Source: Desulfovibrio sp. JC010 (GTDB lineage Bacteria; Desulfobacterota; Desulfovibrionia; Desulfovibrionales; Desulfovibrionaceae). Taken from it: 64,000 bases of DNA. The stretch covers positions 62,001 to 126,000 of the forward strand of contig NZ_VOIQ01000005.1 in the NCBI RefSeq assembly GCF_010470675.1. The letters run 5' to 3'. The notes below the pieces were generated by a model, which saw only the letters and a program-made list of their open reading frames with translations, was not told the DNA's origin and made no database searches. A program made the position numbers and the translations under genes. Below, in pieces: positions 3,801 through 54,179 of the stretch; the first letter of the stretch is position 1, and the number at the start of each line of letters is the position of its first letter.

Positions 3801-3870
3801 ACGGCGAAGCCCTACTAAAAAAGTTTGGGATTCTTAAACCCTTTTCAAAGGGTTTAAGCCGCCGGAGGCA
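3801..3870 (+). repeat. dispersed hairpin element, copy A
   Basis: The element reads ACGGCGAAGCC...AAAAAAGTTTGGGATT, then a perfect 12-bp hairpin (CTTAAACCCTTT, loop TC, AAAGGGTTTAAG, 3833-3858), then GCCGCCGGAGGCA. The same layout recurs at about 7.7, 7.9, 30.3, 37.5, 37.7, 49.5 and 54.1 kb. In this copy no gene starts behind the GGAGG; it lies just downstream of the convergent frdC-like gene. Confidence 0.85.
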
Positions 3871-3910
3871 AAATCAAATAATCAAAAGCGCGAAGCGCAT
3901 CAACTCTCTC

Positions 3911-4561
3911 TTATGCACTCAAAGTCATGAATTTAGCCAGAGTAGCCAGCCCGATGCAGATGAAGAACACGGCCAGCCCGGTGGCGAATTTGTTCAGTCT
4001 ACCGCGCTGGTAATCCTTGATGAATCCCCATTTGACGGCGATCCGGTACAGCCCGGCCACAACATGCATAACCACCAGCGGAGCCAGAACCAGATAGAAG
4101 AAGATCCACGGTCCGGACTGGATGCGTTCGGCAGAACGGGCTGCAGTGATGGGCAGGTCACTGAGTACAGCCCACATGTGGATAGCACCCATAACCAGAA
4201 TCAGCATGGCGGACACCACCTGTACAACCCAGAGCCATGTGTCGCGGTGTTTGAGCATTTTTGCATGCTTCCAGATGGTTTTCTGGCCTTCCAGACGGAA
4301 GGGGATCTTGCGTGCAGCGAGATAGAAGTGAAAGAGGAAAAGCAGGAACAGGATCGGACCACCGATCTGGGCCATGTAATTTTCCTCGTAAGTGTGAGCG
4401 ATAGTGTCCATGATTGCCGGACTGAATATCACACTTGAAACAAGGCTCATATGCATAAATACAAAAATGATAAGAGCCACCCCTGAAAACATCTGGAGCC
4501 AGTCCAGAATTGCGTCACTCTTGCCCCGCTTGACAGGAGCGACAGTAGAATTGAAAGACAT
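3911..4561 (-). CDS. frdC: diheme cytochrome b subunit of fumarate reductase/succinate dehydrogenase (Wolinella FrdC type)
   Basis: This 216-aa membrane protein has five hydrophobic segments and the four histidines that ligate two hemes in Wolinella-type FrdC: H37 (FMHMS), H78 (LFHFYLAARK), H128 (GAIHMW) and H166 (VMHVVAGLYR). It anchors the flavoprotein and Fe-S subunits and exchanges electrons with menaquinone. The start at 4561 has GGAGG 5 bases upstream; a longer frame to 4651 has no support. Oddly, no frdA or frdB is next to it: it is followed by a repeat and a terminator. The Glu that precedes the last heme His by two residues in Wolinella (E180, from memory) is Val here. Confidence 0.92.
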   Translation of the reverse strand: MSFNSTVAPVKRGKSDAILDWLQMFSGVALIIFVFMHMSLVSSVIFSPAIMDTIAHTYEENYMAQIGGPILFLLFLFHFYLAARKIPFRLEGQKTIWKHAKMLKHRDTWLWVVQVVSAMLILVMGAIHMWAVLSDLPITAARSAERIQSGPWIFFYLVLAPLVVMHVVAGLYRIAVKWGFIKDYQRGRLNKFATGLAVFFICIGLATLAKFMTLSA

Positions 4562-4622
4562 CAGCACCTCCGTATAATAATTGAAATAAAATACCTCGCA
4601 ACCGGTATTTTCCGCGCCGCAG

Positions 4623-4651
4623 ATAATGTCCCCCGTAAGTTGTTTTGTCAA
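4623..4651 (-). promoter_or_regulatory. candidate sigma70 promoter of frdC
   Basis: On the minus strand TTGACA (4651-4646) is followed after 17 bases by CATTAT (4628-4623), about 60 bases before the frdC start. Confidence 0.5.
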
Positions 4652-4773
4652 TCAACATATACATTCTCTTTTGCAGATAAACTCCCGTAATAACGGGGTT
4701 GAAGGATAATTTAACGTTTTGGGAAATTGCTTGCGGTATAGTTTTGTTTTTTCCGACTTTTATTTCTCATCCG

Positions 4774-4802
4774 TTGACCTTAACGAAACCTGTGCTTAAC
4801 TT
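4774..4802 (+). promoter_or_regulatory. candidate promoter of the M16 protease gene
   Basis: TTGACC (4774-4779) and TAACTT (4797-4802) are separated by 17 bases, 94 bases before the chosen start. The -10 box is weak. Confidence 0.35.
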
Positions 4803-4896
4803 CTTTTTTCAGTGTTTATGGGATATTGTTATTCGCCCTCTATTTTTACGATAATTTGTACTTCAAACCTGATTGACATACCGGAGTTTAAAAGAC

Positions 4897-7722
4897 ATGG
4901 TCCCTCAACAAAATGTGAAGGCTGCTCAAGCCGTTAAAGGATTTGATTTTGAAAAATTATGTATTTTTATGCTGCTTTGCGGGGTGCTGCTGATGAGTAG
5001 CGGATGCAAAGTGGAAAAGATAGATGCCAGCAGAAAAGAGGATGTTGCCGCCGGATTGATTGAAAATGAATCCGCTGCCGCCCCTGCTGTCACGGCAGTT
5101 GAGCCTGTTGCAGAAAAGACCGCACAGGAAGAACTGAGCAATGAAATCAAGAAGGCCCTTGCTTCCGGCGAAGGCCCGCACGTGATCAAGCTCAAGAACG
5201 GTATGTCCGTGCTGATCAAGGAAGATGACCGTTTTCCGCTGGTCAATGTTCGTCTGTTCGTCCATGCCGGGTCCGCTTATGAAGAGCCGGAGCAGGCCGG
5301 GATCAGCCATCTGCTGGAACATATGGTTTTCAAAGGTACGGAAACCCGCGCCCCCGGTCAGACAGCCCGTGAAATTGAGTCCGTGGGCGGTGATATGAAT
5401 GCTGCCACCAGCTTTGACTACACTGTTTATTACGTGGAAGTCCCTGAGAACGAATGGAAGCTGGGCATGGATATTGTCACCGACATGACCTTTAACGCCA
5501 AGATTGATCCCGAAGAACTCAAGTCCGAGCGTGAGGTTGTGCTTTCCGAGCTGGAACGCGGTGAAGACAATCCCGGCAGCAGGATTTTCAAAACCCTGCA
5601 GTCCATTGTCTGGAAAGATACCAGTTACCAGTGGCCCATCATCGGTTACCGTGACACCGTAAAAGGTATTTCATCCGAAGATATCCACGCCTACATCGAC
5701 CGTCTTTATCAGCCGCAATCCATGCTGCTCAGCGTGGTCGGCAAGATTGATCCTGAAGCGGTTGCAAGGGAAGCGGAAAGGCTTTGCGGCAGCCGCAAGT
5801 CCGTGAATCCGGTTGTTCCGCCCACTGTTTTTCCTGTTCCCGCAACAGGCAAGACCACCGTTAAGATAGTTCCGGGTAAATGGAACAAGGCATACATCGG
5901 TGCGGCATTCCCCATTCCCGGTCTCAGTTCCGCCAAGATTGCCGGACTGGAAACCATGTGTGAGCTGCTCGGCGGCGGGGAAACTTCCCGTTTGTACCGT
6001 AAGTTCAAATATGAAAAGCGCATGGTGGACAGCATTTCCGTGTCTTCCCTGACTCTTGAGCGGGCCGGGATGCTTTATGTTTTCGCCACCCTTGATGCTG
6101 ATAAGGTCGACGAGTTCTGGAAAGAACTTATGGTTGAACTTTCTTCGGTTGACTTTAATGATTTCACTGACCGCGAGATGGACAGGGTGGTTATCAACCT
6201 TGAGGACTCCCTGTTCCTGACCAAGGAAACCCTTTCCGGGCTTGCCTCCAAGCTGGGCTATTTCCAGTTTTTTGAAGGCGGTCAGGAGGCTGAGGAAAAT
6301 TACCTCTACGATCTGCGTAACATCACCCGTGAGCAGCTGCAGCTGCTTTACGATGAATATTTTGATCCTGAAAAGCTGGCTGCCTGCATGCTCATGCCGG
6401 AAGGCGTAGAGGCGGACGCGCAGGTTTTTGAAAAGGCCGTAGCCGAAAACTGGCCTGCAAAGATCAAGGCCGCAGCGCAGGCTGAAGACGCAGGGCCGGG
6501 CGAAGCTGATACCATTGAACTGGCCAACGGCAGCAAGCTGGTTTTCATACCTGATGAAACCCTGCCGTACACAGCCATGTCCATGTACTGGGTGGGCGGT
6601 GATGCTGACCTTACTCCTGAAGAGCAGGGGCTTGCGGCTATGGTTTCCCAGAGTTTGACCCGTGGCACCGAAACCATGAATGCCACCGAGCTTGAAGATT
6701 TTGTTTCGGACCGCGCCGCATCTCTCGGTGCTACTGCCGGACGTGAGGTGTTTGCCATCAATGCCAAGTTTCCGTCCCGCTTCACTGATGATATGCTGCC
6801 GCTGATCAGCGAAATAATCAGCAGCCCTCGTTTTGCTGCGGAAGAACTGGACCGCGCACGGCAGGATCAGGTCTCAGCCATCAAGCGCAAAGAAGACCGC
6901 CCCTTAAGCCTCGCTTTCAGGAATATTTTCCCTTTCCTTTATAAGGACGGCAGCTACTCCTATTTCCATCTGGGCATGCCTGAGGTCGTGGAGAAATTTA
7001 CCCGTGAAGAGGTCGCCGGCTACTGGCAGAAGCAAAGTTCACGTCCTTTCGTGATTTCCATCTGCGGTGATTATGACCGTGAAGCTCTGACCGCATTTGC
7101 AAAAGGGCTGGATGGCAATCTGGTTGCAAAGGATACAGCTGTTGCCGTCCCCGCTCCCAATTGGGGAGGGGAAAAGGATCTGACCATGACCCTGCCGGAT
7201 CGCAATCAGGCTCACCTGATGGTGATTTTCTCGGTACCGGGTATGGAAGATGAAGAAGCAACAGCCGGACTTTCGTTGCTCCGTGCCTCCCTTGCAGGGC
7301 AGAGCGGTCTGCTTTTTCGCGATCTGCGCGACAAGCAGGGACTCGGTTATACTGTGACCGCTTTCCTTTGGCAGGCACCCAAGACCGGGTTCATGGCCTT
7401 TTACATCGGCACCAAGCCGGAACAGCTGGAACAAGCCATGGCCGGATTCGACAAGACCGTGAAGATGCTTAAGGAAAGTGATCTGCCTGAAGATGAAATC
7501 CTGCGCGCCCGCAACATCCTGCGCGGCGAATACTATCAGGATCATCAGAGTTTGCTTTCCCGCAGCCGGGAAGCGGCCAGCCTGATCGTCAAAGGATTTC
7601 AGCCCGACCTTGATCAAAAAATAATCGAGCGGGCTGCAAAGATTGACGCCGCTCAGGTCAGGGAGCTTATTAACAAGTATATTGACTGGAATAATAAATA
7701 TACGCTTACTGTAAAGCCTTAA
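4897..7722 (+). CDS. two-domain M16 (pitrilysin-type) zinc metalloprotease, exported, probable lipoprotein
   Basis: The protein has 941 aa from the ATG at 4897 (CCGGAG upstream; an in-frame TTG at 4873 only adds eight residues). The N-terminus has a hydrophobic segment ending in LLMSSGC, so a lipid-modified Cys37 is likely, although the -3 position is Ser. The catalytic HxxEH motif is complete: H138-LL-E141-H142, with the distal metal ligand at E218 (LSELERGE), exactly 76 residues on. The second half (from about residue 510) repeats the M16 fold without HxxEH, the usual inactive half of the clamshell. It should degrade peptides in the periplasm or at the outer membrane. It is monocistronic, followed by a repeat and a terminator. 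Confidence 0.93.
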   Translation: MVPQQNVKAAQAVKGFDFEKLCIFMLLCGVLLMSSGCKVEKIDASRKEDVAAGLIENESAAAPAVTAVEPVAEKTAQEELSNEIKKALASGEGPHVIKLKNGMSVLIKEDDRFPLVNVRLFVHAGSAYEEPEQAGISHLLEHMVFKGTETRAPGQTAREIESVGGDMNAATSFDYTVYYVEVPENEWKLGMDIVTDMTFNAKIDPEELKSEREVVLSELERGEDNPGSRIFKTLQSIVWKDTSYQWPIIGYRDTVKGISSEDIHAYIDRLYQPQSMLLSVVGKIDPEAVAREAERLCGSRKSVNPVVPPTVFPVPATGKTTVKIVPGKWNKAYIGAAFPIPGLSSAKIAGLETMCELLGGGETSRLYRKFKYEKRMVDSISVSSLTLERAGMLYVFATLDADKVDEFWKELMVELSSVDFNDFTDREMDRVVINLEDSLFLTKETLSGLASKLGYFQFFEGGQEAEENYLYDLRNITREQLQLLYDEYFDPEKLAACMLMPEGVEADAQVFEKAVAENWPAKIKAAAQAEDAGPGEADTIELANGSKLVFIPDETLPYTAMSMYWVGGDADLTPEEQGLAAMVSQSLTRGTETMNATELEDFVSDRAASLGATAGREVFAINAKFPSRFTDDMLPLISEIISSPRFAAEELDRARQDQVSAIKRKEDRPLSLAFRNIFPFLYKDGSYSYFHLGMPEVVEKFTREEVAGYWQKQSSRPFVISICGDYDREALTAFAKGLDGNLVAKDTAVAVPAPNWGGEKDLTMTLPDRNQAHLMVIFSVPGMEDEEATAGLSLLRASLAGQSGLLFRDLRDKQGLGYTVTAFLWQAPKTGFMAFYIGTKPEQLEQAMAGFDKTVKMLKESDLPEDEILRARNILRGEYYQDHQSLLSRSREAASLIVKGFQPDLDQKIIERAAKIDAAQVRELINKYIDWNNKYTLTVKP

Positions 7723-7727
7723 GAATC

Positions 7728-7806
7728 CCTCCGGGGGCCAAAGGGAAAACTTTTGCAAAAGTTTTCCCTTTGGATTCCCTTTCAAAACCTTTTATTAAGC
7801 TTCGCT
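7728..7806 (-). repeat. dispersed hairpin element, copy B (reverse orientation)
   Basis: Read on the minus strand this is GCGAAGCTTAATAAAA...GGTTTTG, then a perfect 17-bp stem (7738-7773, loop GC), then GGCCCCCGGAGG ending five bases after the protease stop. It forms an inverted pair with copy C. Its stem sequence differs from copies A, F and G but remains fully complementary. Confidence 0.85.
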
Positions 7807-7830
7807 ACGTTAGCGGAAGATAGTAACTAA

Positions 7831-7867
7831 AAAACTCGTCATAGCATCCACGCTATGACGAGTTTTC
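7831..7867. terminator. intrinsic terminator between repeat copies B and C
   Basis: A perfect 15-bp stem (7831-7845 with 7852-7866, loop ATCCAC) begins with AAAA and ends with TTTT, so it can work in both directions between the protease and the convergent yigZ gene. Confidence 0.85.
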
Positions 7868-7895
7868 TATTTGTAAGGCTATTTTTAAAGTTATA

Positions 7896-7984
7896 TGCGA
7901 AGCCTATTGAAAAGTTTTGAGGGGTTGGGGTCTGGGGAAGGGGAACTTTTCCCAAAAGTTCCCCTTCCCCAGCCGCCGGAGGCA
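7896..7984 (+). repeat. dispersed hairpin element, copy C
   Basis: The element starts TGCGAAGCCTATTGAAAAG, contains a perfect 19-bp stem with arms CTGGGGAAGGGGAACTTTT and its complement (loop CCC), and ends AGCCGCCGGAGGCA. It points toward the 3' end of the minus-strand yigZ gene, so its GGAGG has no start codon to serve here. Confidence 0.85.
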
Positions 7985-7986
7985 TC

Positions 7987-8616
7987 TTATCTCCAGATAT
8001 CTTCCTCTTCTACCAATAACTCAGCCGTGCCGTTGGTGTCTTCTATGATCCGTGCACAAAAGGCTTCCACCTGATCCGAAGGCATGATCAGCGTAAACAT
8101 GAGGCTGGCCCCGAAGGATTGCTCCTCGATTTCAGCCCGGTACTCATCGAGCATGCGCCGCAGCATGCCTTCCTGCGCGTAGGAAATTTCAAGGGTCAGC
8201 ATGCGCATGGGTACCTTCATGACCACTTCCAGTTCTTCCAATCCTTGCTGTACCGCTCCAGAGTAAGCCCGCACCAGCCCGCCTGTTCCTAGCTTTATCC
8301 CACCGAAATATCTGGTGACCACAGCGGCTATCTCTCCGATACCGCTTCCCTGCAATACCTGAAGCATGGGCTTGCCCGCCGTGCCCTGCGGTTCTCCGTC
8401 ATCGCTCATGCCCATATCTCCGGTCTGGGGCGGTCCGCCAATGAAAGCGGAGCAGTGGTGCCGCGCGTCCGGGAATTCGCTTTTGATGGCAGCAATGAAC
8501 TTTTTGGCCTGCTCACGGTCCTGAACTTGACATAGGTCACAGATGAAACGGCTTTTCTTGATTATTTCTTCAGTACGGACTGCTTTTCCAGGAACAGGGT
8601 AGGCTTTGTTTTTCAT
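7987..8616 (-). CDS. yigZ: YigZ/IMPACT family protein (UPF0029)
   Basis: This 209-aa protein has the N-terminal UPF0029 domain with its signature (SKFIA-like KSRFICDL, HHCSAFIGG, SDDGEPQGTAGKPML, VVTRYFGGIKLGTGGLVRAYSGA) and a C-terminal DUF1949 ferredoxin-like domain from about residue 135. Length and architecture match bacterial YigZ. Family members resemble eukaryotic IMPACT and are thought to bind nucleic acid or ribosomes; the precise role is not settled. No clear Shine-Dalgarno sequence precedes the ATG at 8616. It is transcribed alone toward repeat copy C. Confidence 0.93.
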   Translation of the reverse strand: MKNKAYPVPGKAVRTEEIIKKSRFICDLCQVQDREQAKKFIAAIKSEFPDARHHCSAFIGGPPQTGDMGMSDDGEPQGTAGKPMLQVLQGSGIGEIAAVVTRYFGGIKLGTGGLVRAYSGAVQQGLEELEVVMKVPMRMLTLEISYAQEGMLRRMLDEYRAEIEEQSFGASLMFTLIMPSDQVEAFCARIIEDTNGTAELLVEEEDIWR

Positions 8617-8713
8617 GATGTTTAGTCTTTGATATGATTGAATTTGTTTGTTGGCTGCGATGTGTTGTTCATTAATACAGCAGCAAAATTTAAATTAAAA
8701 GGTATTTTAAGTG

Positions 8714-8741
8714 TTGACTTAGTAATAGGAATTGTTATTAT
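8714..8741 (+). promoter_or_regulatory. candidate promoter of the 8802 gene
   Basis: TTGACT (8714-8719) and TATTAT (8736-8741) are 16 bases apart and lie 60 bases before a gene with a strong ribosome binding site. Confidence 0.5.
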
Positions 8742-8801
8742 TTAGTCAAGGTTGATGGGAAAACAACTAATTCGGATATTTTAGAAAGTAAGGAGATAAT
8801 T

Positions 8802-9146
8802 ATGGGAAGCCTCAGAGATTACAAGAATTGGGACATTGATTGGGAAATGACTCCTGAAGATGCAGTAACCCTGTACCTTGAGTGGGGTAACCATCCTTGG
8901 GATTCCAAGTTTGCACCGGTAACTTCCAAGAATGACTACACAAACTATTTTACCGTCTACCTGTGGGATGACAAGCCGAGGGTGCTTTTCGTGCGCAGGA
9001 ATTCGGAAGAGGCTCGTGAACTGATGAGCATTGAACTGCCCAGGGATATTGCTGAAAGGTTCAGGAAGTCTGTCGGTAACCTTAAGGGTAATTACCCGGT
9101 TAATACCGAAGTGAGAGAATGGATTGAATCGCAGATGAATAATTAG
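8802..9146 (+). CDS. small conserved hypothetical protein of a Desulfovibrio-type family
   Basis: This 114-aa soluble acidic protein starts MGSLRDYKNWDIDWEMTPED and has no signal peptide or membrane helix. It has a canonical ribosome binding site (AAGGAG, 7 bases before ATG), its own promoter-like sequence and its own terminator, so it is a well-isolated and probably well-expressed unit. I recall similar short proteins in other Desulfovibrio genomes (DVU0772-like); this is from memory and the function is unknown. There are no cysteines, so metal binding through Cys is excluded. Confidence 0.85.
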   Translation: MGSLRDYKNWDIDWEMTPEDAVTLYLEWGNHPWDSKFAPVTSKNDYTNYFTVYLWDDKPRVLFVRRNSEEARELMSIELPRDIAERFRKSVGNLKGNYPVNTEVREWIESQMNN

Positions 9147-9173
9147 TTCCCATCTCCTTATCATCTAGCCCGC

Positions 9174-9211
9174 AGGGGGACAGGCTCGCAGCCTGTTCCC
9201 CTCACTTTTTT
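9174..9211 (+). terminator. intrinsic terminator of the 8802 gene
   Basis: A 13-bp stem (9174-9186 with 9190-9202, one G-T pair, loop CGC) is followed by CACTTTTTTC. Confidence 0.9.
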
Positions 9212-9336
9212 CTGTGCTGCAGCAAAAAATGCATTCTGCCTCTTGTGTTCTAAATGAAAATCAGTATGCTTCCACTTATTCCAGCGTTCGCATTTCTTTA
9301 TTCCCTAAAAAATACGCAACGAACTGCCGAAATACT

Positions 9337-9365
9337 ACTGTCCTGATACAGTGGCGCAATACTGT
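9337..9365 (+). promoter_or_regulatory. candidate operator upstream of the aminotransferase
   Basis: ACTGT (9337-9341), ACAGT (9348-9352) and ACTGT (9361-9365) form an inverted plus a direct repeat about 40 bases before the start codon. A GntR/MocR-type regulator would be a natural partner for an aminotransferase gene, but no such gene is adjacent. Confidence 0.35.
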
Positions 9366-9403
9366 ACGCTTTTTCGGCCCCATATATTCTCAAGGAGGCT
9401 AGT

Positions 9404-10594
9404 ATGCCCGTTAAATTTGCCGACCGCATGTCCACCGTGCACAGGTCCTTTATCCGTGAAATTCTGAAAGTGACTCAGGATCCTTCAATTATTTCTTTTG
9501 CAGGCGGTCTGCCCAACCCGGAACTATTTCCCGTGTCCGACCTTGAACAGGCTGCGGTCAAAGTCATGCGTGAAAGTGGACCGCAATCAATGCAGTATTC
9601 CACCACTGAAGGGTTTGAGCCGCTGCGCCAGTACATTGCAGATCGTTACCTTGATAAAAAAGGTATCAAAGTCAGTGCTGATGAAATCCTGATCACTTCC
9701 GGTTCACAGCAGTGTCTTGATCTGCTGGGTAAAGTATTTCTCAATGCCGGGGATAACGTTGTTATCGAACGTCCCGGTTATCTTGGAGCTATCCAGTCCT
9801 TTTCAATTTTTCAGTCCAATTTCCTTACCGTAGGTCTTGAGTCTGACGGCCCTGATCTCGCAGAGTTGGAAAAGGTTCTTGATGAAAATGAAGCCCGCAT
9901 GTTTTACGCGGTAACCAACTTCCAGAATCCGTCCGGCCTGACCTACAGTGCTGATAAACGTCAAGGCGTAGCCGATATTCTCAAAGATCGTGATATCCTT
10001 TTTGTGGAAGACGATCCTTACGGTGAACTTCGTTTTATGGGCGATTTTGAAAAGCCCGTGGTGCGTGGGTATCTTGAGGAAAACGGTATCCTGCTCGGTT
10101 CTTTTTCCAAGGTTGCTGCTCCGGGATTCCGTCTCGGCTGGATGGTCTGTCCCACTGATGTGCGTGACAAGCTGATTATTGCCAAGCAGGCTTCAGACCT
10201 GCATACCAGCACCTTTGCCCAGCGGGTCATGCATCAGTATGTTACTGATAATCCGTTGGATGATCACATTGAGAAGATTCGTGAGTGCTACGGAAACCAG
10301 CGTGCGGCCATGGTCCGGGCTATTGATGAGTATTTCCCCGCCGAAGCGGAAGTTACCCGCCCTGAGGGTGGTATGTTCCTTTGGGTTACCCTGCCTGAAG
10401 GCATGTCTTCCATGGATCTTTTTGACGAGGCTATCAAGAACAAGGTGGCTTTTGTTCCGGGCCGTCCTTTTTATGTTGACGGCAGCGGCGAAAATACTTT
10501 CCGCCTCAACTTTTCCAACTCCAATGAAGAGCAGATTGCCGAAGGCATCAAGCGTCTTGGAGCGGGAATCAAGGAGTTCCTGAGCAAGGCGTAA
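9404..10594 (+). CDS. PLP-dependent aminotransferase class I/II (2-aminoadipate/LysN-like)
   Basis: This 396-aa fold-type I aminotransferase starts MPVKFADRMSTVHRSFIREILKV with FAGGLPNPELFP, typical of the LysN/KAT-II branch. The PLP lysine is K236 in GSFSKVAAPGFRLGWM; VTNFQNPSG and the C-terminal GMFLWVTLPEG and FRLNFSN motifs are also present. AGGAGG lies 7 bases before the ATG. Members transaminate 2-aminoadipate, aromatic or branched-chain amino acids with 2-oxoglutarate; sequence alone does not fix the substrate. It is a single-gene unit with a candidate operator upstream and a terminator downstream. Confidence 0.92.
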   Translation: MPVKFADRMSTVHRSFIREILKVTQDPSIISFAGGLPNPELFPVSDLEQAAVKVMRESGPQSMQYSTTEGFEPLRQYIADRYLDKKGIKVSADEILITSGSQQCLDLLGKVFLNAGDNVVIERPGYLGAIQSFSIFQSNFLTVGLESDGPDLAELEKVLDENEARMFYAVTNFQNPSGLTYSADKRQGVADILKDRDILFVEDDPYGELRFMGDFEKPVVRGYLEENGILLGSFSKVAAPGFRLGWMVCPTDVRDKLIIAKQASDLHTSTFAQRVMHQYVTDNPLDDHIEKIRECYGNQRAAMVRAIDEYFPAEAEVTRPEGGMFLWVTLPEGMSSMDLFDEAIKNKVAFVPGRPFYVDGSGENTFRLNFSNSNEEQIAEGIKRLGAGIKEFLSKA

Positions 10595-30296: not shown

Positions 30297-30350
30297 GGCG
30301 AAGCCAAACTAAAAGTTTCTTTGGTCTCCCCGAAGGGGCCGCCGGAGGCA
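30297..30350 (+). repeat. dispersed hairpin element, copy D, carrying the nuoD ribosome binding site
   Basis: A short copy: GGCGAAGCCAAACTAAAAG, a 4-bp hairpin CCCC-GAA-GGGG, then GCCGCCGGAGGCA. Its GGAGG (30344-30348) lies 6 bases before the nuoD ATG, so the repeat itself supplies the translation start signal. Confidence 0.85.
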
Positions 30351-37489: not shown

Positions 37490-37641
37490 GCCTCCGGCGG
37501 CCAAAGAACCCTTTTGGAAAAGGGTTCTCTGGACTCTCCACAAATCCGCAGGAAAGCGGATTTGGACGTTGCCCAAAAGGCAACGCCTCGCAGGGGGGAG
37601 CCTCAGGACGAGGCGAATCCAAAACTTTCAATAAGCTTCGC
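37490..37641 (-). repeat. dispersed hairpin element, copy E (reverse, with extra hairpins)
   Basis: Read on the minus strand it starts GCGAAGCTTATTGAAAG and ends GGCCGCCGGAGGC, seven bases after the nuoL-like stop. Between these lie four perfect hairpins: AGAACCCTTTT/AAAAGGGTTCT, AAATCCGC/GCGGATTT, GTTGCC/GGCAAC and GCCTCG/CGAGGC. It is the longest copy and forms an inverted pair with copy F. Confidence 0.8.
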
Positions 37642-37688
37642 AGTTAGCTTGTGAAGACGACATAGTGAATTGACAAATTGCCTTAACA

Positions 37689-37773
37689 CGAGGCGCAGCC
37701 CTACTAAAACGTTTTGGGATTCTTAAACCCTTTTGGAAAAGGGTTTAAGGCCCCCGGCAGGGTCGCCGAAGGC
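37689..37773 (+). repeat. dispersed hairpin element, copy F, directly upstream of nuoM
   Basis: AGGCGCAGCCCTACTAAAACG, then a perfect 13-bp hairpin CTTAAACCCTTTT/AAAAGGGTTTAAG, then GGCCCCCGGCAGGG and GCCGAAGGCA. The usual GGAGG is changed to GAAGG here; nuoM instead uses TGGAGA just behind the repeat. Confidence 0.85.
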
Positions 37774-46873: not shown

Positions 46874-46878
46874 ATTTC

Positions 46879-47474: not shown

Positions 47475-47492
47475 GACTAGTTGAAAAAAAGA

Positions 47493-47513
47493 TTGATAAT
47501 CAAAATCGATTGA
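47493..47513. promoter_or_regulatory. Fur-box-like site upstream of the His-rich protein gene
   Basis: The + strand reads TTGATAATCAA, then AA, TCGATTGA, matching the feoAB site at 18 of 21 positions. Confidence 0.65.
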
Positions 47514-47543
47514 TGTTTAGCTTTTCAAATATAAGTGAGTCAA
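47514..47543 (-). promoter_or_regulatory. candidate promoter of the His-rich protein gene
   Basis: Minus-strand TTGACT (47543-47538) and TAAACA (47519-47514) are 18 bases apart, with the Fur-like box immediately downstream. Confidence 0.4.
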
Positions 47544-47810
47544 GGAGAAAATGAAAATTGTTCTCAGTTAAGAGGGCACGCCTTGCGAAAGAATTTTAAA
47601 ACAACTATTATGTATAGCGAATGCATGACTCATAGGGAGTTGTGCTTCAAGGATAGAGAAGGGTGGGCGACCTGATTGGCAGGTCGTCCTCCCTTCTTTT
47701 TTTATACTGTTTATTTCGTCACTTTCCCGCCATGCAGCGACATAATTCATTATGTAATCCTTAGCGTTAAGGACAAACAAGCGTTCATTATGTTATTGGA
47801 AGGCGAACAT
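47544..47810 (+). other. leader region of the MFS transporter gene
   Basis: With the promoter sites at 47475-47543 this gap is 336 bases without a gene. On the + strand it contains a terminator hairpin at 47661-47704 although no + strand gene lies upstream, so a leader or small RNA may end there. No known riboswitch is recognised. Confidence 0.5.
47661..47704 (+). terminator. intrinsic terminator in the MFS transporter leader
   Basis: GGGTGGGCGACCT (47661-47673) pairs with AGGTCGTCCTCCC (47681-47693) with one mismatch and one G-T pair, followed by TTCTTTTTTTAT. Confidence 0.75.
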
Positions 47811-49322
47811 ATGAATTTTTATCGGGGAGAAGGCCGTATGGCTGTTGTTGATGAATCCGGCGAAGTTGCTGCCAGATCTGTGCAGGATTACATAGATGAG
47901 ACTCCTTATTGGGCAGACGGCACTGTTGCGCCCTCTTCGCCCATGACTGTTATGCAGTGGAGAATCTGGTTTCTTGCTTCAGCTGGTAAATTTTTTGAGG
48001 GCATGGTTGTGTTCATGACCGGGGTGGCCCTGCCGCTCATCGTGAGTGAATTCAATCTCGGAGCCATGGAAAAGGGTACGGTCAGTGCCGCAACCCTGTT
48101 CGGAATTCTTATTGGTGCTACAGTGCTCGGCGGTCTGGCCGACCATTACGGTCGTAAGAAGATGTTTATTGTGGAGATGGTTCTTTTTGTGGCCTGTCTG
48201 GTGGCATTGGTATTCAGCCCCAACTATATTTTTCTGGTAATTTTTCTTTTCGGCATGGGACTGGCTCTGGGGTGTGACTACCCTACAGCGCATATGGTTA
48301 TTTCCGAGTCCATCCCCAGTACGGATCGCGGGCGGTTGGTGCTGAGTGCTTTTGCATTTCAGGCAGTCGGTGCCCTTGTGGGGACTGCCATCGGGTATCT
48401 TATCCTGTATAAAGCCCCGGAACTGAGTGCATGGAGATACATGTACGGGGCGGCCATTATTCCGGCTATTCTTGTGGTCGTGGGCAGGTTTTATATTCCT
48501 GACAGCAGTCACTGGCTGGTTGCCAAGGGCCGGATCAAGGAAGCGGAAGAGGCCCTCCATTCGCTGCTGTACCGTGAACCTCATTATCCCAAGGTCATCA
48601 AGATCGCCCCACCTGTTGAAAACGGAAACGGTGGAGACAAAGAGGAAAGCAAAGGCACTTATGCCGATCTTTTCAAAGGTAAGAGCTTCCGGGCTACCGT
48701 CCTCGCGTCTGTTCCGTGGTTCCTGCAGGATCTGGGAACATACGGGATCGGGATTTTTACCCCCACTATTCTGGCTTCTGTTCTCGGTGCCAAGGCTGTG
48801 CATGCCCGAAATGTGGCGGACCTGATTCATAATGATATGCTGGCAGCCAAGGGTGCGGCTTTCATTGATGTTCTCCTGCTTGTGGGAATCCTCGCCGCAG
48901 TATTGATGGCTGATAAAGTAGGGCGTATCAAGTTGCAGGTTGTGGGATTCATCGGTTGTGCCATCGGGCTGCTTCTGGCTTCTATGTCCATGACAATGGA
49001 CCCCGATTCCTCCATGTCCATAACCCTGCTTTTCAGTGGATTCATGCTCTTCAGTTTTATGACCAACATGGGTCCCAATGCCATCACCTATCTGCTGGCC
49101 GGGGAAGTCTTTCCCACTAAAATCAGGGGGAAGGGTGCAGGATTCGCGGCTTCGTTTGCCAAGGTCGGTGCGGTTGCAACGGCATTTTTCTTCCCGGTTC
49201 TGCTCAAGGATTTCGGAACCGGACCGATTCTGGGGTTTCTGGTGGTTTGTTCAATCATCGGGGCAATTGTGACCTGGATGTTTCGTATTGAAACCAGCGG
49301 GGTCAATCTGGAAGATTTGTAA
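47811..49322 (+). CDS. MFS transporter (sugar-porter-like fold)
   Basis: The protein has 503 aa from the ATG at 47811, chosen because GGAAGG lies 7 bases upstream; further in-frame starts at 47790 and 47838 are possible. It has twelve membrane helices with MFS signatures GGLADHYGRKKMF after helix 2, PSTDRGRLVLSAF and EVFPTKIRGKGAGFAAS. A 45-residue hydrophilic N-terminus precedes helix 1. It imports or exports a small organic substrate by proton symport; the substrate is unknown. It is transcribed alone with a leader that contains a terminator and ends in a terminator. Confidence 0.9.
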   Translation: MNFYRGEGRMAVVDESGEVAARSVQDYIDETPYWADGTVAPSSPMTVMQWRIWFLASAGKFFEGMVVFMTGVALPLIVSEFNLGAMEKGTVSAATLFGILIGATVLGGLADHYGRKKMFIVEMVLFVACLVALVFSPNYIFLVIFLFGMGLALGCDYPTAHMVISESIPSTDRGRLVLSAFAFQAVGALVGTAIGYLILYKAPELSAWRYMYGAAIIPAILVVVGRFYIPDSSHWLVAKGRIKEAEEALHSLLYREPHYPKVIKIAPPVENGNGGDKEESKGTYADLFKGKSFRATVLASVPWFLQDLGTYGIGIFTPTILASVLGAKAVHARNVADLIHNDMLAAKGAAFIDVLLLVGILAAVLMADKVGRIKLQVVGFIGCAIGLLLASMSMTMDPDSSMSITLLFSGFMLFSFMTNMGPNAITYLLAGEVFPTKIRGKGAGFAASFAKVGAVATAFFFPVLLKDFGTGPILGFLVVCSIIGAIVTWMFRIETSGVNLEDL

Positions 49323-49345
49323 ATTTTCCCTCACCTCCTTCCACT

Positions 49346-49388
49346 AAAGCCTTGTTCCTGATTACAGGAGCAGGGCTTTTTCTTTTTT
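49346..49388 (+). terminator. intrinsic terminator of the MFS gene
   Basis: AGCCTTGTTCCTG and CAGGAGCAGGGCT form a stem with two G-T pairs and loop ATTA, followed by TTTTCTTTTTT. Confidence 0.88.
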
Positions 49389-49451
49389 AATAACCCCTTG
49401 CACAACAGTCTTGTATGCTTATATAATTAGCAAATATATTAACAAAACCAC

Positions 49452-49546
49452 GACGGTTCCCTTGTCAAAACGTTTTGGGATTCTTAAACCCTTTTGGAAA
49501 AGGGTTTAAGCCCCCGGAGGGACCGCCGGTAGGCCCGCCGGAGGCA
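49452..49546 (+). repeat. dispersed hairpin element, copy G, carrying a ribosome binding site
   Basis: A perfect 13-bp hairpin CTTAAACCCTTTT/AAAAGGGTTTAAG is followed by GCCCCCGGAGGGACC and GCCCGCCGGAGGCA. The final GGAGG (49540-49544) lies 5 bases before the ATG at 49550. Confidence 0.85.
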
Positions 49547-49549
49547 CAT

Positions 49550-50113
49550 ATGCATGAAACAAGTATGGGTGGAACATTGCGTGATTATTTAAGTGGCGAA
49601 GAAATTGAAGAGACCACTTACGAGGAATTCCGTCAGGCACTGGCAAAGCTGCTGGTGGAAGAATTGGGCTACCCCAAAGAGTCGCTCAAAGCCAAGATCG
49701 ACCTCTGTTTTGAAATAGACGGCGAGGAAATGTGCCGCACTATAGACCTTGTTGTTTATGATAAAAACGACCAGCCGATCCTTATGGTCATGTTCTGCGC
49801 CGGGGATGTGGGCAGCTATGAACGTGAAGCTGTCTGTGCTGGGAAGCTTTTTCAGGGCGGTCCGGTTCCTTACGTGGTCATTTCAGACTCCATGGACGCT
49901 TTCCTGCTTGATGCCGTTTCCGGCAAGACTCTGGCCCACGGCATGAAGTCTGTACCGAACTGGGACGAGCTGCTCAAGATGACCGCCGATTACAAGCGCG
50001 AACCGCTCCCGGCAGAAAAGCGGACCAAGATTGAACGCATTTTTTATACCTACACCGGATTCCTGCAGGGCACCTGCTGCAGTGATTCCTGTTCCCTGCC
50101 GCCTAAGAAGTAG
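49550..50113 (+). CDS. HsdR-N-like (HSDR_N_2 type) protein with degenerate nuclease site
   Basis: The protein has 187 aa from the ATG at 49550, behind the GGAGG of repeat copy G; reading the frame further upstream only translates the repeat. It resembles the type I restriction enzyme R N-terminal domain: EEFRQALAKLLVEELGYPKE and RTIDLVVYDKNDQPILMV. The PD-(D/E)xK nuclease core should continue with E-x-K but reads VMFCAG here, so Glu and Lys are lost and cleavage is unlikely. The C-terminus is Cys-rich (GTCCSDSCSLPPKK). No HsdM or HsdS is adjacent, so this is not a restriction system. Function unknown. Confidence 0.82.
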   Translation: MHETSMGGTLRDYLSGEEIEETTYEEFRQALAKLLVEELGYPKESLKAKIDLCFEIDGEEMCRTIDLVVYDKNDQPILMVMFCAGDVGSYEREAVCAGKLFQGGPVPYVVISDSMDAFLLDAVSGKTLAHGMKSVPNWDELLKMTADYKREPLPAEKRTKIERIFYTYTGFLQGTCCSDSCSLPPKK

Positions 50114-50156
50114 GGGGATAATCTGAAGAGCTAAAAACATAGCCTAACAGCATCAT

Positions 50157-50197
50157 AAAACCCGTTCCAGTTCATATAAAACTGGAGCGGGTTTTTT
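50157..50197 (+). terminator. intrinsic terminator of the HsdR-N-like gene
   Basis: AAAACCCGTTCCAGTT (50157-50172) pairs with AACTGGAGCGGGTTTT (50180-50195) with one G-T pair, then TT. Confidence 0.9.
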
Positions 50198-50317
50198 GTT
50201 TGAAAAAAGATATCTGTCTTAATTTAATCTGTGTAGCAATTTACAGATAAATCTTGTACCAGAAATAAAGATGTAACTACCTTTAAAAATAATCACGCTA
50301 ATTAAGGAGTACGCAGT

Positions 50318-52618
50318 ATGAAGATAACCAAACATATGTGGCCTGTTTTGATTGTTTCTGCTCAATTTGAATCCAATACGGGCGAAGGCCGCAGACTGCG
50401 GAATCTGGAGAATGAGTTGCTTACGGAACAGGAGTGCTCGGTATGCCCTTCCCACAGTTATGAGGATGCCATGGAAATTTTCATCTCCCGTGCAGATATC
50501 GGTGCAGTGGTAATTGACTGGGATATCCGTTTTGAAAAGGATGATGAAAAAGAAGCTCCTGAACATCTGGTCAATGCCATCCGTAAAAGAAATAAGAATA
50601 TTCCCATTTTTCTGCTCACCGAGCGGATACCCATGGAGGATATTTCCACCAAGATTCTAGGGCAGATTAATGAATGCCTCTGGAAAAGTGCTGAAACAGC
50701 TGAATTTCTGGCCGGACGTATTGAAACTCATCTGGTTGAATATGTCCGTTCTGTCTTTCCGGTCTTTTTCGGGGAGATGGTCAAATACTCAGAAGCCTAC
50801 AAATACGCATGGCACACCCCCGGACACATGGGCGGGGAAGGATTCCTCAAAAGCCCGGCCGGGGTGGCAATGCATAAATTCTACGGCGAGAACGTGTTCC
50901 GTTCCGACCTTTCCATCTCCGTTCCCGAACTTGGCTCGCTGCTGGATCATAGCGGGGTAGTCGGTGATGCTGAAAACAATTCCGCCCGTGCTTTCGGAGC
51001 AGACCATACCTTCTACGTCCTTAACGGAACCTCAAATGTCAACCAGATTATCTGGCGCAGCCAGCTGGTGCGGGACGACATCGCCTTTGTGGACCGCAAC
51101 TGCCATAAATCCCTCAATTACGCTATGGTCATCACCGATGCCTATCCCATCTATATGGTGCCCAGACGAAATAAGCGCGGCATAATCGGTCCCTGCCGTC
51201 TGTCAGAATTTTCCGAGGAAACAATCCAGTCCAAGGTCCGTGAAAACAAGCTCATTCCCGAAGAATTGAAAAAGCAGAGCATACGCATGTCCGCTCTCAC
51301 CAACTCCACCTATGACGGAGTCTGCTACAACGTCATCAACATCAAAAAGCAGCTCCAGAAGAGCGTGGACAACCTTCATTTTGATGAAGCGTGGTATGCT
51401 TATGCCCGTTTTCATCCCATGTATAAGGATCATTTCGGTATGGCTGATGATGACCGCAATGAACATCATCCGCCTATTTTCTGCTCCCATTCCACTCATA
51501 AGCTGCTGACCGCTTTTTCACAGGCTTCCATGCTTCATGTGCGTGATGGCAGCGATGTGAAGATTGACCGCGATGAGCTTAATGAATCTTACATGATGCA
51601 CGGGTCCACTTCCCCGCAATACAGCATGATCGCCTCTCTCGATGTGGCCACCAAAATGATGCAGGACAGCGGTGAAGTGCTCATGCACGATACCATGATC
51701 GAGGCAGTGAATCTGCGAAAGAAAGTTTCCATGATCGCCAGTGAAATGAATGAACAGGACAGCTGGTTCTTTGAAATGTGGCAGCCGGAAAAAGTACTCG
51801 TGGGCAAGGGGTATAAGAAGTTTGAGGATGTTCCCACTGAATACCTTTGCACCCACCAGCATCCGTGGGTCTTTTCCGCCGAAGACAACTGGCACGGCTT
51901 CGAAGACATGGAAGATGAATACGCCATGCTCGATCCCATTAAACTGACTTTTACCACCCCCGGTCTCAACCATGACGGAACCATGGAAGATGAAGGTATT
52001 CCGGCTTCCATTGTTACCGACTACCTGATCAACCATGGTATCGTCTGCGAAAAAACCGATTACTATTCCTTCCTGATGCTCAATTCCGTGGGTACCAACA
52101 AGGCCAAGCAGGGCTCGCTGCTGGCCGGGCTGCTCAAGTTCAAGGAAGTTTACGACGCCAACCAGCCCCTTGATATGGTACTGCCCGATCTGGTCAAAGC
52201 ATACCCGGAAACTTATTCAGGAGTAGGCGTAAAGGATCACTGCAACGCCATTCACAATTACTACAAAGAGCACAAGCTGCTTGATAAAATGCAGGCCGCT
52301 TTTCAGGTTATCCCGGATCAGGCCATCAAGCCTTCCGAAGCCTACCATGCCGTGGTCCGCAAGAATGTGGAATACGTGGAACTCTCCGAAATGCAGGACC
52401 GCATCCCGGCTGTAATGGTTGTTCCCTATCCTCCGGGCATCCCGGTAATTATGGGCGGGGAAATCCTTAACGACAAAGCACGGCCCATCTTTGATTACCT
52501 CACAGCCCGTCAGGATTTCGAAAATGTATTCCCCGGATATGAAAGCGATATCCATGGCGTGGAACGTGTTGAACGGGACGGTAAGAAGTTCTTTAAAACC
52601 ATGTGCCTGAAGAAATAA
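50318..52618 (+). CDS. adiA: PLP-dependent Orn/Lys/Arg decarboxylase, most like biodegradative arginine decarboxylase
   Basis: This 766-aa protein has an N-terminal wing domain (about 10-140), a PLP domain with the Schiff-base lysine K395 in HSTHKLLTAFSQAS, and a C-terminal domain with VPYPPGIPVIMGGE. Its length and C-terminal sequence match AdiA (about 755 aa) better than CadA or SpeC. It decarboxylates arginine to agmatine, consuming a cytoplasmic proton. An AdiC-like exchanger gene and a GadC-like antiporter gene follow on the same strand, so the three form an acid-resistance unit. AAGGAG precedes the ATG. Confidence 0.88.
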   Translation: MKITKHMWPVLIVSAQFESNTGEGRRLRNLENELLTEQECSVCPSHSYEDAMEIFISRADIGAVVIDWDIRFEKDDEKEAPEHLVNAIRKRNKNIPIFLLTERIPMEDISTKILGQINECLWKSAETAEFLAGRIETHLVEYVRSVFPVFFGEMVKYSEAYKYAWHTPGHMGGEGFLKSPAGVAMHKFYGENVFRSDLSISVPELGSLLDHSGVVGDAENNSARAFGADHTFYVLNGTSNVNQIIWRSQLVRDDIAFVDRNCHKSLNYAMVITDAYPIYMVPRRNKRGIIGPCRLSEFSEETIQSKVRENKLIPEELKKQSIRMSALTNSTYDGVCYNVINIKKQLQKSVDNLHFDEAWYAYARFHPMYKDHFGMADDDRNEHHPPIFCSHSTHKLLTAFSQASMLHVRDGSDVKIDRDELNESYMMHGSTSPQYSMIASLDVATKMMQDSGEVLMHDTMIEAVNLRKKVSMIASEMNEQDSWFFEMWQPEKVLVGKGYKKFEDVPTEYLCTHQHPWVFSAEDNWHGFEDMEDEYAMLDPIKLTFTTPGLNHDGTMEDEGIPASIVTDYLINHGIVCEKTDYYSFLMLNSVGTNKAKQGSLLAGLLKFKEVYDANQPLDMVLPDLVKAYPETYSGVGVKDHCNAIHNYYKEHKLLDKMQAAFQVIPDQAIKPSEAYHAVVRKNVEYVELSEMQDRIPAVMVVPYPPGIPVIMGGEILNDKARPIFDYLTARQDFENVFPGYESDIHGVERVERDGKKFFKTMCLKK

Positions 52619-52654
52619 TTTGATTGGGACAGTATCAATAAACCGGAGGGCCGT

Positions 52655-54067
52655 ATGACAGATTCAGGCTCCAAGCAGAAATTATCAGTTTTTACGCTGA
52701 TGATGATCAACGTGGCGGCGATTCTGTCGTTACGCGCCCTGCCGGGACTGGCGGAATACGGCTGGGGATTGATATTCTATCTGGCACTGGGATCGCTGAG
52801 TTTCTTTATTCCGTCGGCACTTGTTTCTGCGGAACTTGCCTCCGGCTGGGATGATGAGGGCGGCGTGTATCTCTGGGTCAAAGAGGCTTTCGGTCCCAAA
52901 TGGGGCTTTGTGGCTATTTTCATGCAGTGGGTTGAAAACCTGCCGTGGTTTCCGGCGGTGCTTGCTTTTGCGGCATCGGCCATTGCTTACATTTTCGACC
53001 CCCAGCTTGCGGAAAACAAATGGTTCATTGTGGGGGTTATTCAGGTGAGCCTGTGGCTGGCGACCTTTTTGAATTTCCGGGACATGAAACTCTCGGCATT
53101 CTTCAGTTCGTCAGGAGCCATCATCGGAACAATTGTTCCCGGCATGCTGATCATTGTGCTCGGAATAGACCATGTCCTTTCCGGCGGTACGGTTCAGATT
53201 CCCTTTAGCCCCGCAGCGCTCATGCCTGATATCGAGAGCCTGCAGGACCTCATGCTGCTGGCAGCCATGCTGATCTCATTTACGGGCATGGAAATGTCAG
53301 CGGTGCATGTGAATGAGGTCCGCAACCCGTCGGTTAACTATCCCAAGGCTATTTTTGCGGCCAGCGTTCTGATTATCTCCCTTTCCGCGCTGGGATCACT
53401 GGCCATTGCCATGGTCGTCCCGGCGGACGGGGTCAGCCTCAGTGCCGGGGTTTGCCAGGCTTTCGACAAGCTGTTCCAGATTCATAAGATGGAATTCATG
53501 ACCCCGGTCATCTGCCTTTTAATGGCTTACGGCGCTTTGACCATGGTCATCACCTGGATGGTCGGTCCTTCCAAGGGTATCCGTGAGGTCGCCCGCGAGG
53601 GTTATTTGCCGAAACGTTGGCAGAAAACCAATAAATTCGGCATCCCCACCAATATCCTGATTATCCAGAGCGGTCTTTCGGCACTGGTCTCCTGCGCTAT
53701 CCTGTTTATGCCCACCGTATCCAGCGCGTTTATGCTTATGAGTGCGCTGGCGGTGCAGCTCTATCTGATCATGTACCTGCTCATGTTTGCTGCGGCCATC
53801 AGGCTGCGCTACACAAGGCCGGATGTGAAAAGGGGCTACACCATCCCCGGCGGCAAGGTCGGAATCTGGCTGGTCTCGGGGCTGGCCATTGTAACCTGTC
53901 TTTTTGTGTTTGCATTCGGTTTCATTCCGCCCAGAGCGGTCCTCGATGAAGGGCTCACCGCTTCGGTCGGCTACATAGGATTTTTAATCGCAGGTGTCAG
54001 CGTGTTCACCAGTGTTCCGCTCTTTTTTTACAACCGGGCAGTAAAAATGCACGCAGAATTAAAATGA
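52655..54067 (+). CDS. APC-family amino acid antiporter, GadC-like
   Basis: This 470-aa protein has twelve membrane helices and resembles the glutamate:GABA antiporter group of the APC superfamily (LPGLAEYGWGLIFYLALG, GGVYLWVKEAFGPKWGF, TGMEMSAVHVNEVRNP, WMVGPSKGIREVAREGYLP). It sits 36 bases after the decarboxylase gene, so cotranscription is likely. It probably exchanges an amino acid for its decarboxylation product. No glutamate decarboxylase is nearby, so glutamate/GABA specificity is not implied. CGGAGG lies 6 bases before the ATG. Confidence 0.87.
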   Translation: MTDSGSKQKLSVFTLMMINVAAILSLRALPGLAEYGWGLIFYLALGSLSFFIPSALVSAELASGWDDEGGVYLWVKEAFGPKWGFVAIFMQWVENLPWFPAVLAFAASAIAYIFDPQLAENKWFIVGVIQVSLWLATFLNFRDMKLSAFFSSSGAIIGTIVPGMLIIVLGIDHVLSGGTVQIPFSPAALMPDIESLQDLMLLAAMLISFTGMEMSAVHVNEVRNPSVNYPKAIFAASVLIISLSALGSLAIAMVVPADGVSLSAGVCQAFDKLFQIHKMEFMTPVICLLMAYGALTMVITWMVGPSKGIREVAREGYLPKRWQKTNKFGIPTNILIIQSGLSALVSCAILFMPTVSSAFMLMSALAVQLYLIMYLLMFAAAIRLRYTRPDVKRGYTIPGGKVGIWLVSGLAIVTCLFVFAFGFIPPRAVLDEGLTASVGYIGFLIAGVSVFTSVPLFFYNRAVKMHAELK

Positions 54068-54083
54068 CAATTTAACAAACCCA

Positions 54084-54179
54084 ACGGCGAAGCCCTATTA
54101 AAAAAGTTTGGGATTCTTAAACCCTTTTCAAAGGGTTTGAGGCCCCCGGCAGGGCGCCCCGCGAGGCCGCCGGAGGCAT
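54084..54179 (+). repeat. dispersed hairpin element, copy H, adjacent to the AdiC-like start
   Basis: ACGGCGAAGCCCTATTAAAAAAG, a 12-bp hairpin CTTAAACCCTTT/AAAGGGTTTGAG with one G-T pair, then GGCCCCCGGCAGGGC, and finally GCCGCCGGAGGCAT. The GGAGG lies 12 bases before the ATG at 54189; a second GGAG at 54180-54183 overlaps the end of the repeat and has better spacing. Confidence 0.85.

Follow-up and report, generated by a model that had tools for sequence, protein, structure and literature searches.

The window, a 64-kb stretch within the 4.39-Mb draft genome of Desulfovibrio sp. JC010, contains a dispersed, non-coding intergenic repeat that an earlier note on this DNA had described, from eight copies, as a hairpin whose stems covary. 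That observation was right at its core but understated, the kept fold most likely being three-stranded. The feature under conservation is probably a three-stranded fold of one DNA strand, and the element a spreading unit of the repetitive extragenic palindromic (REP) or miniature inverted-repeat transposable element (MITE) type rather than a regulator of neighbouring genes.

In the proposed fold, the + strand (the strand read in the earlier note) would run from a cGNAg mini-hairpin (GCGAAGC) through an A-run, the third strand, the left arm, the apex and the right arm to at least one cGNAg or cGNNAg mini-hairpin. The third strand would consist of a T-run, then a G-run and purines with T or TC at the end, and the left arm would be purine-rich in many types; hinged at the stem base and antiparallel to the left arm, the third strand would form A.A-T and G.G-C triplets, with its T-run over the right-arm A-run (T.A-T). 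Such a fold would form while the strand is single-stranded, for example as the lagging-strand template, and may be kept as a recognition and replication-blocking unit of a machinery that acts on single strands; the folded strand would be the unit acted on during spread. The copies are found mostly at gene ends. More tentatively, the family may be a mobile one with a DNA triple helix as its heritable unit, the folded single strand serving as the substrate of the spreading machinery.

Covariation of the stem and of a putative third strand

Stem covariation was assessed at 84 anchor sites, which are matches to the 3' module in 864 kb of the JC010 genome, picked without regard to stems. In the 75 nt upstream, 66 of them have a stem with 10 or more pairs and no more than one mismatch, in 46 distinct hairpin sequences, whereas 0 of 84 shuffled windows and 46 of 303 other intergenic windows contain one. 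The claim that stems differ between copies while their arms stay complementary is thus upheld at stem-independent sites. The hairpin that was proposed as the kept fold does keep its pairing, but the fold apparently comprises more, with a third partner 5' of the hairpin.

Upstream (5') of the hairpin lies a segment in mirror order to the left arm, as expected of a purine-motif third strand; in one example the third segment is G-AAA-GAGA-GGGG-AT-GGGG-TC and the arm, read from the apex, C-AAAA-GAGA-GGGG-AA-GGGG-T. Records with GCC or CGG in the third segment, or with an apex that was not located, were left out, and some of the parsed records are misread terminators. The 65 distinct records (26 from JC010, 18 from its genus, 19 clostridial and 2 from other Desulfovibrionaceae) fall into 25 arm types, a few of which are terminators or other sequence parsed by mistake. 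When each type was represented by one record and scored with a triplex code (A over A, G over G, G over C, T over T), third segments fitted their own arms better than other arms (permutation z 6.6, compared with 5.9 for a plain mirror, 2.3 for a direct repeat, and -2.3 and -2.5 for Watson-Crick pairing in either direction), values that overstate significance because copies share descent. Among the 256 possible base codes, the best 12 all place A over A and G over G, and the triplex code itself comes 6th when ordered by z and 2nd when ordered by mean score. The base-code and run-length tests were devised after plain mirror identity had given a weak result against letter shuffles (mean z 0.75 in JC010, 0.59 in the genus, 0.16 in clostridial records and -1.45 in the two others).

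Run lengths of third segment and arm are correlated in 71 distinct records, both for the A-run (r 0.68, 0 of 5000 permutations, n = 66) and for the second G-run (r 0.84, 0 of 5000, n = 44). Among 76 elements whose left T-run and right A-run are of unequal length, the 5' T-run matches the right A-run in 59 and the left T-run in 4 (44 and 4 of 59 if each element sequence is counted once), a lock that T.A-T triplets would produce. A later test set of 29 distinct new records, a few of them misread, came from 363 kb of two clostridial metagenome-assembled genomes (MAGs), fetched once the triplex idea had formed; both MAGs had yielded earlier loci, and none of the 29 records lies inside those. In this set the G-run follows the C-run (r 0.61, 9 of 5000, n = 25), as do the A-runs (r 0.51, 57 of 5000, n = 23) and the second G-runs (r 0.89, 0 of 5000, n = 16) each other.

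Genomes are labelled G000 (JC010), G001, G003, G007, G010 and G016 (relatives), and G021 and G024 (other genera of the same family). At orthologous sites with different arms in JC010, G016 and G007, the third segment fits its own arm better than a swapped one in 13 of 17 comparisons, worse in 1 and equally in 3; minus three rows that are misread terminators or other sequence, it is better in 11 of 14 and worse in none, with 3 ties, several comparisons being from the same site. At JC010 site C1 82870, three species have three arms, with a fitting third strand in each. Stem and third-strand tests, orthologous pairs and new clostridial records all support the earlier view that the fold rather than the sequence is kept.

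Among 624 hairpins of at least 11 pairs, taken from both strands of the 864 kb, runs of at least 8 triplets number 18, compared with 5.2 when flanks are exchanged, and 15 of the 18 are members of the repeat family by eye. The longest perfect runs (17, 17, 15 and 12 triplets) all belong to the family; the GAAG type reaches 6 triplets and the arm-switching types fewer.

The mini-hairpin loops are of a type confined almost entirely to one strand. Across 109 element regions there are 478 small hairpins (stem of at least 3, loop of 3-4); 250 of these have cGNAg (212) or cGNNAg (38) loops, of which Markov sequences give about 5, and only 3 have the complementary cTNCg or cTNNCg loops. The anchor module itself supplies 84 of the cGNAg/cGNNAg loops; outside it they account for 166 of 387 small hairpins, in 31 combinations of stem and loop, against 3 complementary ones, and 93 of the 109 regions have at least one. 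A 21.6-kb genome sample contains 14 and 11, respectively. Loops of the d(cGNAg) and d(cGNNAg) kinds, including d(GCGAAGC), are exceptionally stable in DNA. The third place of the tetraloop is a pyrimidine in 34 of 38 cases, and these are therefore no RNA GNRA loops. Stem mismatches of the + strand are G.T in 34 cases and A.C in 13, partly common by descent. According to Holder et al. (2015; PMC4666352), RNA is excluded from purine-motif triplexes. The loop type, the preponderance of G.T mismatches and this exclusion suggest, without being decisive, that the molecule which folds is + strand DNA in single-stranded form and not RNA.

The eight copies in the window

The copies and the centre between two of them are arranged as follows.

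3801..3870, strand +: copy A, with GGCGAAGCC mini-hairpin, A-run, third strand T3+GGGATT (3824-3832), main hairpin (3833-3858), module GCCGCCGGAGGC (3858-3869) and then AAAGCGCGAAGCGCATCAA extension
7728..7806, strand -: copy B, with third strand GAAAGGGAAT (7774-7783), left arm (7757-7773), right arm (7738-7754) and 3' mini-hairpin CCC-GGA-GGG
7896..7984, strand +: copy C, with GCGAAGC mini-hairpin, third strand GAGGGGTTGGGG (7919-7930), hinge TC, left arm (7933-7950), loop CCC, right arm (7954-7971) and module (7972-7983)
30297..30350, strand +: copy D, long hairpin gone, mini-hairpin CCCC-GAA-GGGG and module GCCGCCGGAGGC left
37490..37641, strand -: copy E, with AGAACCC-type hairpin (37501-37532), module (37490-37501) and extra hairpins (37541-37614)
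37642..37688, no strand: centre between the head-to-head copies E and F
37689..37773, strand +: copy F, with third strand T4+GGGATT, hairpin from 37722, tail mini-hairpins CCC-GGCA-GGG and GCC-GAA-GGC
49452..49546, strand +: copy G, with third strand T4+GGGATT, hairpin from 49483, tail mini-hairpins CCC-GGA-GGG, GCC-GGTA-GGC and GCC-GGA-GGC
54084..54179, strand +: copy H, with third strand T3+GGGATT, hairpin 54116-54141, tail mini-hairpins including CCC-GGCA-GGG and GCC-GGA-GGC

With both strands read, all eight loci contain related sequence where the earlier note had placed them, but the series of boxes that the copies were said to share is letter-perfect in none of the eight. Copies A and H show the complete series, shortened by a single T (GTTTGGGATTC). 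Copies F and G both contain GTTTTGGGATTC exactly and neither has GCGAAGCC exactly; F has GCGCAGCC and ends in GCCGAAGGC, and G is without a GCGAAGCC box. Copy B carries GGTTTTGAAAGGGAATCC and ends in CCCCCGGAGGG, copy C carries GTTTTGAGGGGTTGGGGTC, and the 5' blocks of these two differ. Copy D, which has no long hairpin, is apparently an internal-deletion derivative, and copy E is interrupted by 74 nt (37541-37614) in which three further hairpins can be seen by eye; these part the 5' block with its T-run from the main hairpin, as if a second array of hairpins had entered the element. TAAAAG and GTTTTGGGATTC, listed in the earlier note as conserved sequence, belong to a 5' block that varies in step with the stem, as expected of a third strand.

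Copy A has a 5' T-run of 3, equal to its right-arm A-run of 3, with a left T-run of 4; copy B has 9 perfect purine-motif triplets in a row and copy C has 11. Among the six copies that were folded as DNA, A, B and C beat 200 of 200 shuffles (z about -4 to -5; -4.05 for C), and the result is weaker for F, G and H (z -2.1, -2.5 and -1.8). The stop codon of a called gene adjoins copies A-C and E, and a start codon adjoins D and F-H; the GGAGG of the module is 5 nt upstream of the ATG at 49550 in copy G and 6 nt upstream of an ATG in copy D. In many copies (JC010 loci L031-L070 on C1 and C2; 3870-3905 in the window), the module is followed by an extension, GAAATC-N-AAAAGCGCG(A/T/C)AGCGCATCAAA, which resembles an additional module with its own cGNAg hairpin.

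Copy number, placement and gain between species

The JC010 genome has 206 exact copies of the 13-mer GCCGCCGGAGGCA (110 forward, 96 reverse) and 317 matches to the 12-mer module GCCGCCGGAGGC, with 0 for the reversed pattern, which puts the copies well above chance. The 12-mer is present 1 to 317 times across the 17 genomes of the genus that were searched, and 153 (G024) and 135 (G021) times in the two genomes of other genera, in which the reversed control gives 8 and 7 matches. In a survey of 148 genomes of the phylum, 4 of them from other genera of the same family and none a congener, a 19-mer was found in JC010 alone (201 matches with at most one mismatch), and neither viral contigs (two exact patterns) nor phages and plasmids (copy G as sole query) gave a match. 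Among named genomes, a 29-base pattern of the commonest type matches 44 stretches, comprising 18 from Salidesulfovibrio brasiliensis or Desulfovibrio sp. UBA2564 and 26 from MAGs of Clostridia or Oscillospiraceae, many of them labelled as coming from the gut of deer or sheep. Of the 26 clostridial loci, 16 have precisely AAAGTTTTT as their 5' block, which lies outside the search pattern, and most of the rest have a similar block. Each of eight genomes from which such loci come (six of them clostridial) has between 3 and 25 near matches to a 20-mer; L165 and L194, both loci of a single MAG, also contain GCCGCCGGAGGC, and contamination is possible there.

Gene context was counted from simple, rough gene calls at the 79 of 84 anchor sites that are intergenic, leaving out the 5 inside called frames. 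The median distance to the nearest gene is 9 bp from the module end and 101 bp from the opposite end; the gene at the module end stops there at 55 of the 79 sites and starts there at 24. Convergent spaces hold 31 of 79 sites, compared with 81 of 404 background spaces (>60 bp), and divergent spaces 6 of 79, compared with 100 of 404. Close pairs (adjacent within 320 bp, among 110 oriented sites) are head to head with their 5' ends inside in 19 of 19 cases when same-strand anchors less than 110 nt apart are merged; with the limit at 75 nt there are 2 additional same-strand pairs, and main-hairpin anchors alone give 14 of 14. By eye, several centres of head-to-head pairs in JC010 have a motif like GAAGACCGTCTTAACA in common, and therefore pair and centre may form one larger inserted unit.

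Orthologous sites were compared for copies B-F and H, A and G having one flank only. All 7 relatives in which both flanks were found lack the E-centre-F unit (307 bp between two Pfam Proton_antipo_M genes) and have 13-17 bp in its place; B-C is likewise missing from 5 of 5 relatives with both flanks. The site of copy D in 6 such relatives is empty in 4, ambiguous in 1 and occupied by another array in 1; that of copy H in 4 relatives is degenerate in G003, reduced to the mini-hairpin GCCGAAGGC in G007 and empty in G001 and G010. A comparison with two relatives spanning 440 kb allowed 40 of 51 repeat clusters (a few being coding motifs) to be aligned, some present in all genomes, some in one and some of different type, and the exact module is missing from the relative in 47 comparisons, in which sites recur and at least 2 hold a diverged copy. 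Empty orthologous sites, as expected of a MITE-like element, are thus found, and segmental duplication, raised earlier as a competing account, does not explain the copies because they are genome-wide and variably present between species. Host sequence often restarts right after ...GGAGGC, with A next in 54 of 84 modules; as regards target-site duplication, the intergenic flanks at the compared sites have diverged. In the G007 stretch compared with JC010 C1 356149-356301, the frame of the neighbouring gene seems by eye to extend into the element, its C-terminus lengthened by the repeat.

Known repeats and alternative explanations

The earlier note knew of no named family for the element, and indeed the window has no Rfam match at the gathering cut-off, a relaxed search of 7700-8000 only giving sub-threshold matches (top 27.1 bits versus 92). 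The kind is not wholly unnamed, however, because intrastrand-triplex repeats have been described in bacteria: Holder et al. (2015; PMC4666352) define four intrastrand-triplex classes and study the class II repeat TMECO/BoxC, which, with the PIT elements, also comes from Hoyne et al. (2000, 2002) as cited there. Earlier work cited there found no promoter or terminator role for the repeat, and TMECO/BoxC sites have raised variability, with close pairs inverted. The present family is like PIT/BoxC/TMECO in being intergenic and multicopy, with a putative purine-motif third strand, a purine (R) arm and a pyrimidine (Y) arm on one strand, very uneven copy number between close relatives, inverted close pairs and raised site variability. 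TMECO has the order Y-R-third and a conserved G/C-rich sequence, whereas the present family is of class I order (third-R-Y), its third strands co-vary with some 25 types of arm, a T-run block would lie over the opposite arm, and cGNAg mini-hairpins are present; its hosts are Desulfovibrionaceae and Clostridia, and neither "Desulfovibrio" nor "Clostridi-" is in the main text of PMC4666352. The TMECO/BoxC pattern CCCTCNCCCN3-6GGGNGAGGGN3GGGNGAGGG has 0 matches in the 864 kb.

Class I order (third strand, purine arm and pyrimidine arm on one strand) is found together with an antiparallel mirror and at most 17 consecutive A.A-T, G.G-C or T.A-T triplets, and the family is predicted to work like a class I purine-motif intrastrand triplex. 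It is not classed as an ITxF member, since in the main types a T/A-run stem sits between the purine stem and the loop; the ITxF criteria in PMC4666352 are stems of 6-15 triplets, loops of 1-6 nt and a purine stem beside the apical loop. A strict scan with the published loop limits and stems of 8-15 gave 3 sites in the 864 kb, all of which carry the family's 3' module. In G024 (L219 5219 and 5344, minus strand), the module accompanies short hairpins such as GAAGGATT-CC-AAAGGAAC-GAA-GTTCCTTT, which by eye also fit class I triplex order. The best reading is of a putative spreading single-stranded-DNA element with class I intrastrand-triplex order. Catalogues of bacterial triplex-forming repeats exist; in this family a predicted third strand follows the arm across orthologous sites and distant hosts. 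Literature searches found nothing on three-way covariation of such repeats, with poor coverage of subscription journals, and nothing relevant on the element strings or on Desulfovibrio with repeat or hairpin.

Among other palindromic repeats, REP/BIME/REPIN elements are likewise short and intergenic, present in hundreds of copies and inverted pairs, and likely acted on as single-stranded hairpins; where these go with a REP-associated tyrosine transposase (RAYT), the present family differs in having no Y1 transposase in its own genome, no GTAG/CGTC excess, and multi-hairpin modules with a third strand. The single-strand transposition signals of IS200/IS605 are subterminal hairpins with a short guide segment at the hairpin foot. 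The present hairpin also has a short segment beside its foot, but no Y1 gene was found in JC010, and the foot segment is a mirror of the arm and does not pair with a cleavage site. Pneumococcal BOX and mitochondrial double-hairpin elements are similar as intergenic mosaics of exchangeable hairpin modules, and no third-strand covariation is known to us for either.

Among the alternative explanations, an RNA element, in which the transcribed complementary strand folds as a structure of the 3' untranslated region and perhaps forms a pyrimidine-motif RNA triplex protecting the mRNA end, would suit the placement at gene ends: stops at the module end imply that the complementary strand is transcribed, the median distance is short, convergent spaces are favoured and divergent ones avoided, and the complementary-strand order R-Y-third is a pyrimidine-motif layout possible in RNA according to PMC4666352. 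Against it stand the 24 sites at which the gene starts at the module end, the cGNAg/cGNNAg loops on the opposite strand and their non-GNRA tetraloops, the mismatches that favour G.T on the + strand (partly by descent), the want of an Rfam match in the window at gathering score, and the absence of a U-tract straight after the hairpin in the copies read, which together make an RNA element unlikely. Templated quasi-palindrome correction with gene conversion between copies could keep arms complementary without selection and would accommodate element types that differ between species at the same orthologous site; yet polymerase copying makes no mirror (reversed, uncomplemented) copy, such as the third strand is of the arm, and GNA/GNNA loops are kept while stems change, so that this account is improbable.

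Ordinary REP/BIME palindromes spread by a RAYT (TnpA-REP) transposase would account for hundreds of intergenic palindromes, head-to-head pairs and uneven copy number, and G021, with its many modules, has two matches to PF01797 (Y1/TnpA-REP). The same profile has 0 matches in JC010 (the search being positive in 5 of 14 named control genomes), and a RAYT/Y1 transposase was rejected as mobiliser for this genome; the profile is found in 21 of 59 genomes of the family, and not in the equally module-rich G024. GTAG and CGTC are not enriched near the hairpins, occurring within 60 nt of 86 anchors 4 and 11 times upstream, 12 and 9 times downstream and 0 times inside the hairpin, against an informal expectation of about 20 at even base use. 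REP definitions, moreover, include no third-strand mirror, and spread of this kind is very improbable. Two further structures were rejected: an intrinsic terminator, there being no U-tract by eye, with GCC modules on one side and GAATCCCAAAA or GACTCTCC on the other; and a loop-tail pseudoknot (complementary-strand loop TTTTG with tail CAAAA), which was dropped because the GG-loop copies do not fit it while a triplex accounts for the lock between T-run and A-run.

Several observations weigh against a kept triplex in a spreading element. The triplex is predicted from covariation, the permutation z and p are inflated by the kinship of the copies, and the energy models used handle no triplexes. 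Over the 71 records the G-run follows the C-run with r 0.22 only (148 of 5000), and without Clostridia the correlation is not significant (r 0.17, 574 of 5000); the leading G is absent from 17 of these third strands. At shorter cut-offs the excess of triplet runs is modest (27 versus 14.0 for at least 7, 58 versus 37.2 for at least 6). The commonest type (GGGATTC/TTAAACCC), for which the plain mirror scores under the shuffled mean, is a weaker triplex case because its purines switch arms. No triplex was detected at TMECO/BoxC in E. coli by dimethyl sulfate footprinting in vivo, and no function of that repeat emerged (PMC4666352). No mobilising gene was found in JC010, PF01797 being the only profile sought. 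A replichore strand bias of the IS200/IS605 kind was seen in one genome, G016 (38:21 versus 11:30, p 0.00026, among 100 of 112 matches listed and with a post hoc boundary; p 0.0013 at the exact half), and not confirmed in two: two JC010 contigs, both of negative skew, have 44 + and 35 - matches, in the opposite sense, and no clear bias appears among the 50 of 124 matches listed for G003; hence it was not used.

If the family is indeed a mobile one with a DNA triple helix as its heritable unit, its three-way covariation over about 25 arm types in two phyla would provide evidence from evolution both for the formation of an intrastrand DNA triplex in living bacteria and for selection on it. The family could make it testable whether DNA triple helices matter in living cells. 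A third strand that tracks its arm at orthologous sites and in distant hosts would amount to a natural mutational scan, and because arm types predict the third strands that should bind them, the triplex could be tested by third-strand swaps. The family would also point to a hairpin that spreads without RAYT, and, with 1 to 317 module matches between species of one genus, may serve as a marker family.

Elsewhere in the window, a 63-nt repeat with a AAAGGGTGTAATC inverted repeat occurs in two copies (57508-57570 and 58668-58730) that are 84% alike and bracket a called gene, and a similar hairpin was seen in a stretch of a relative (L074).

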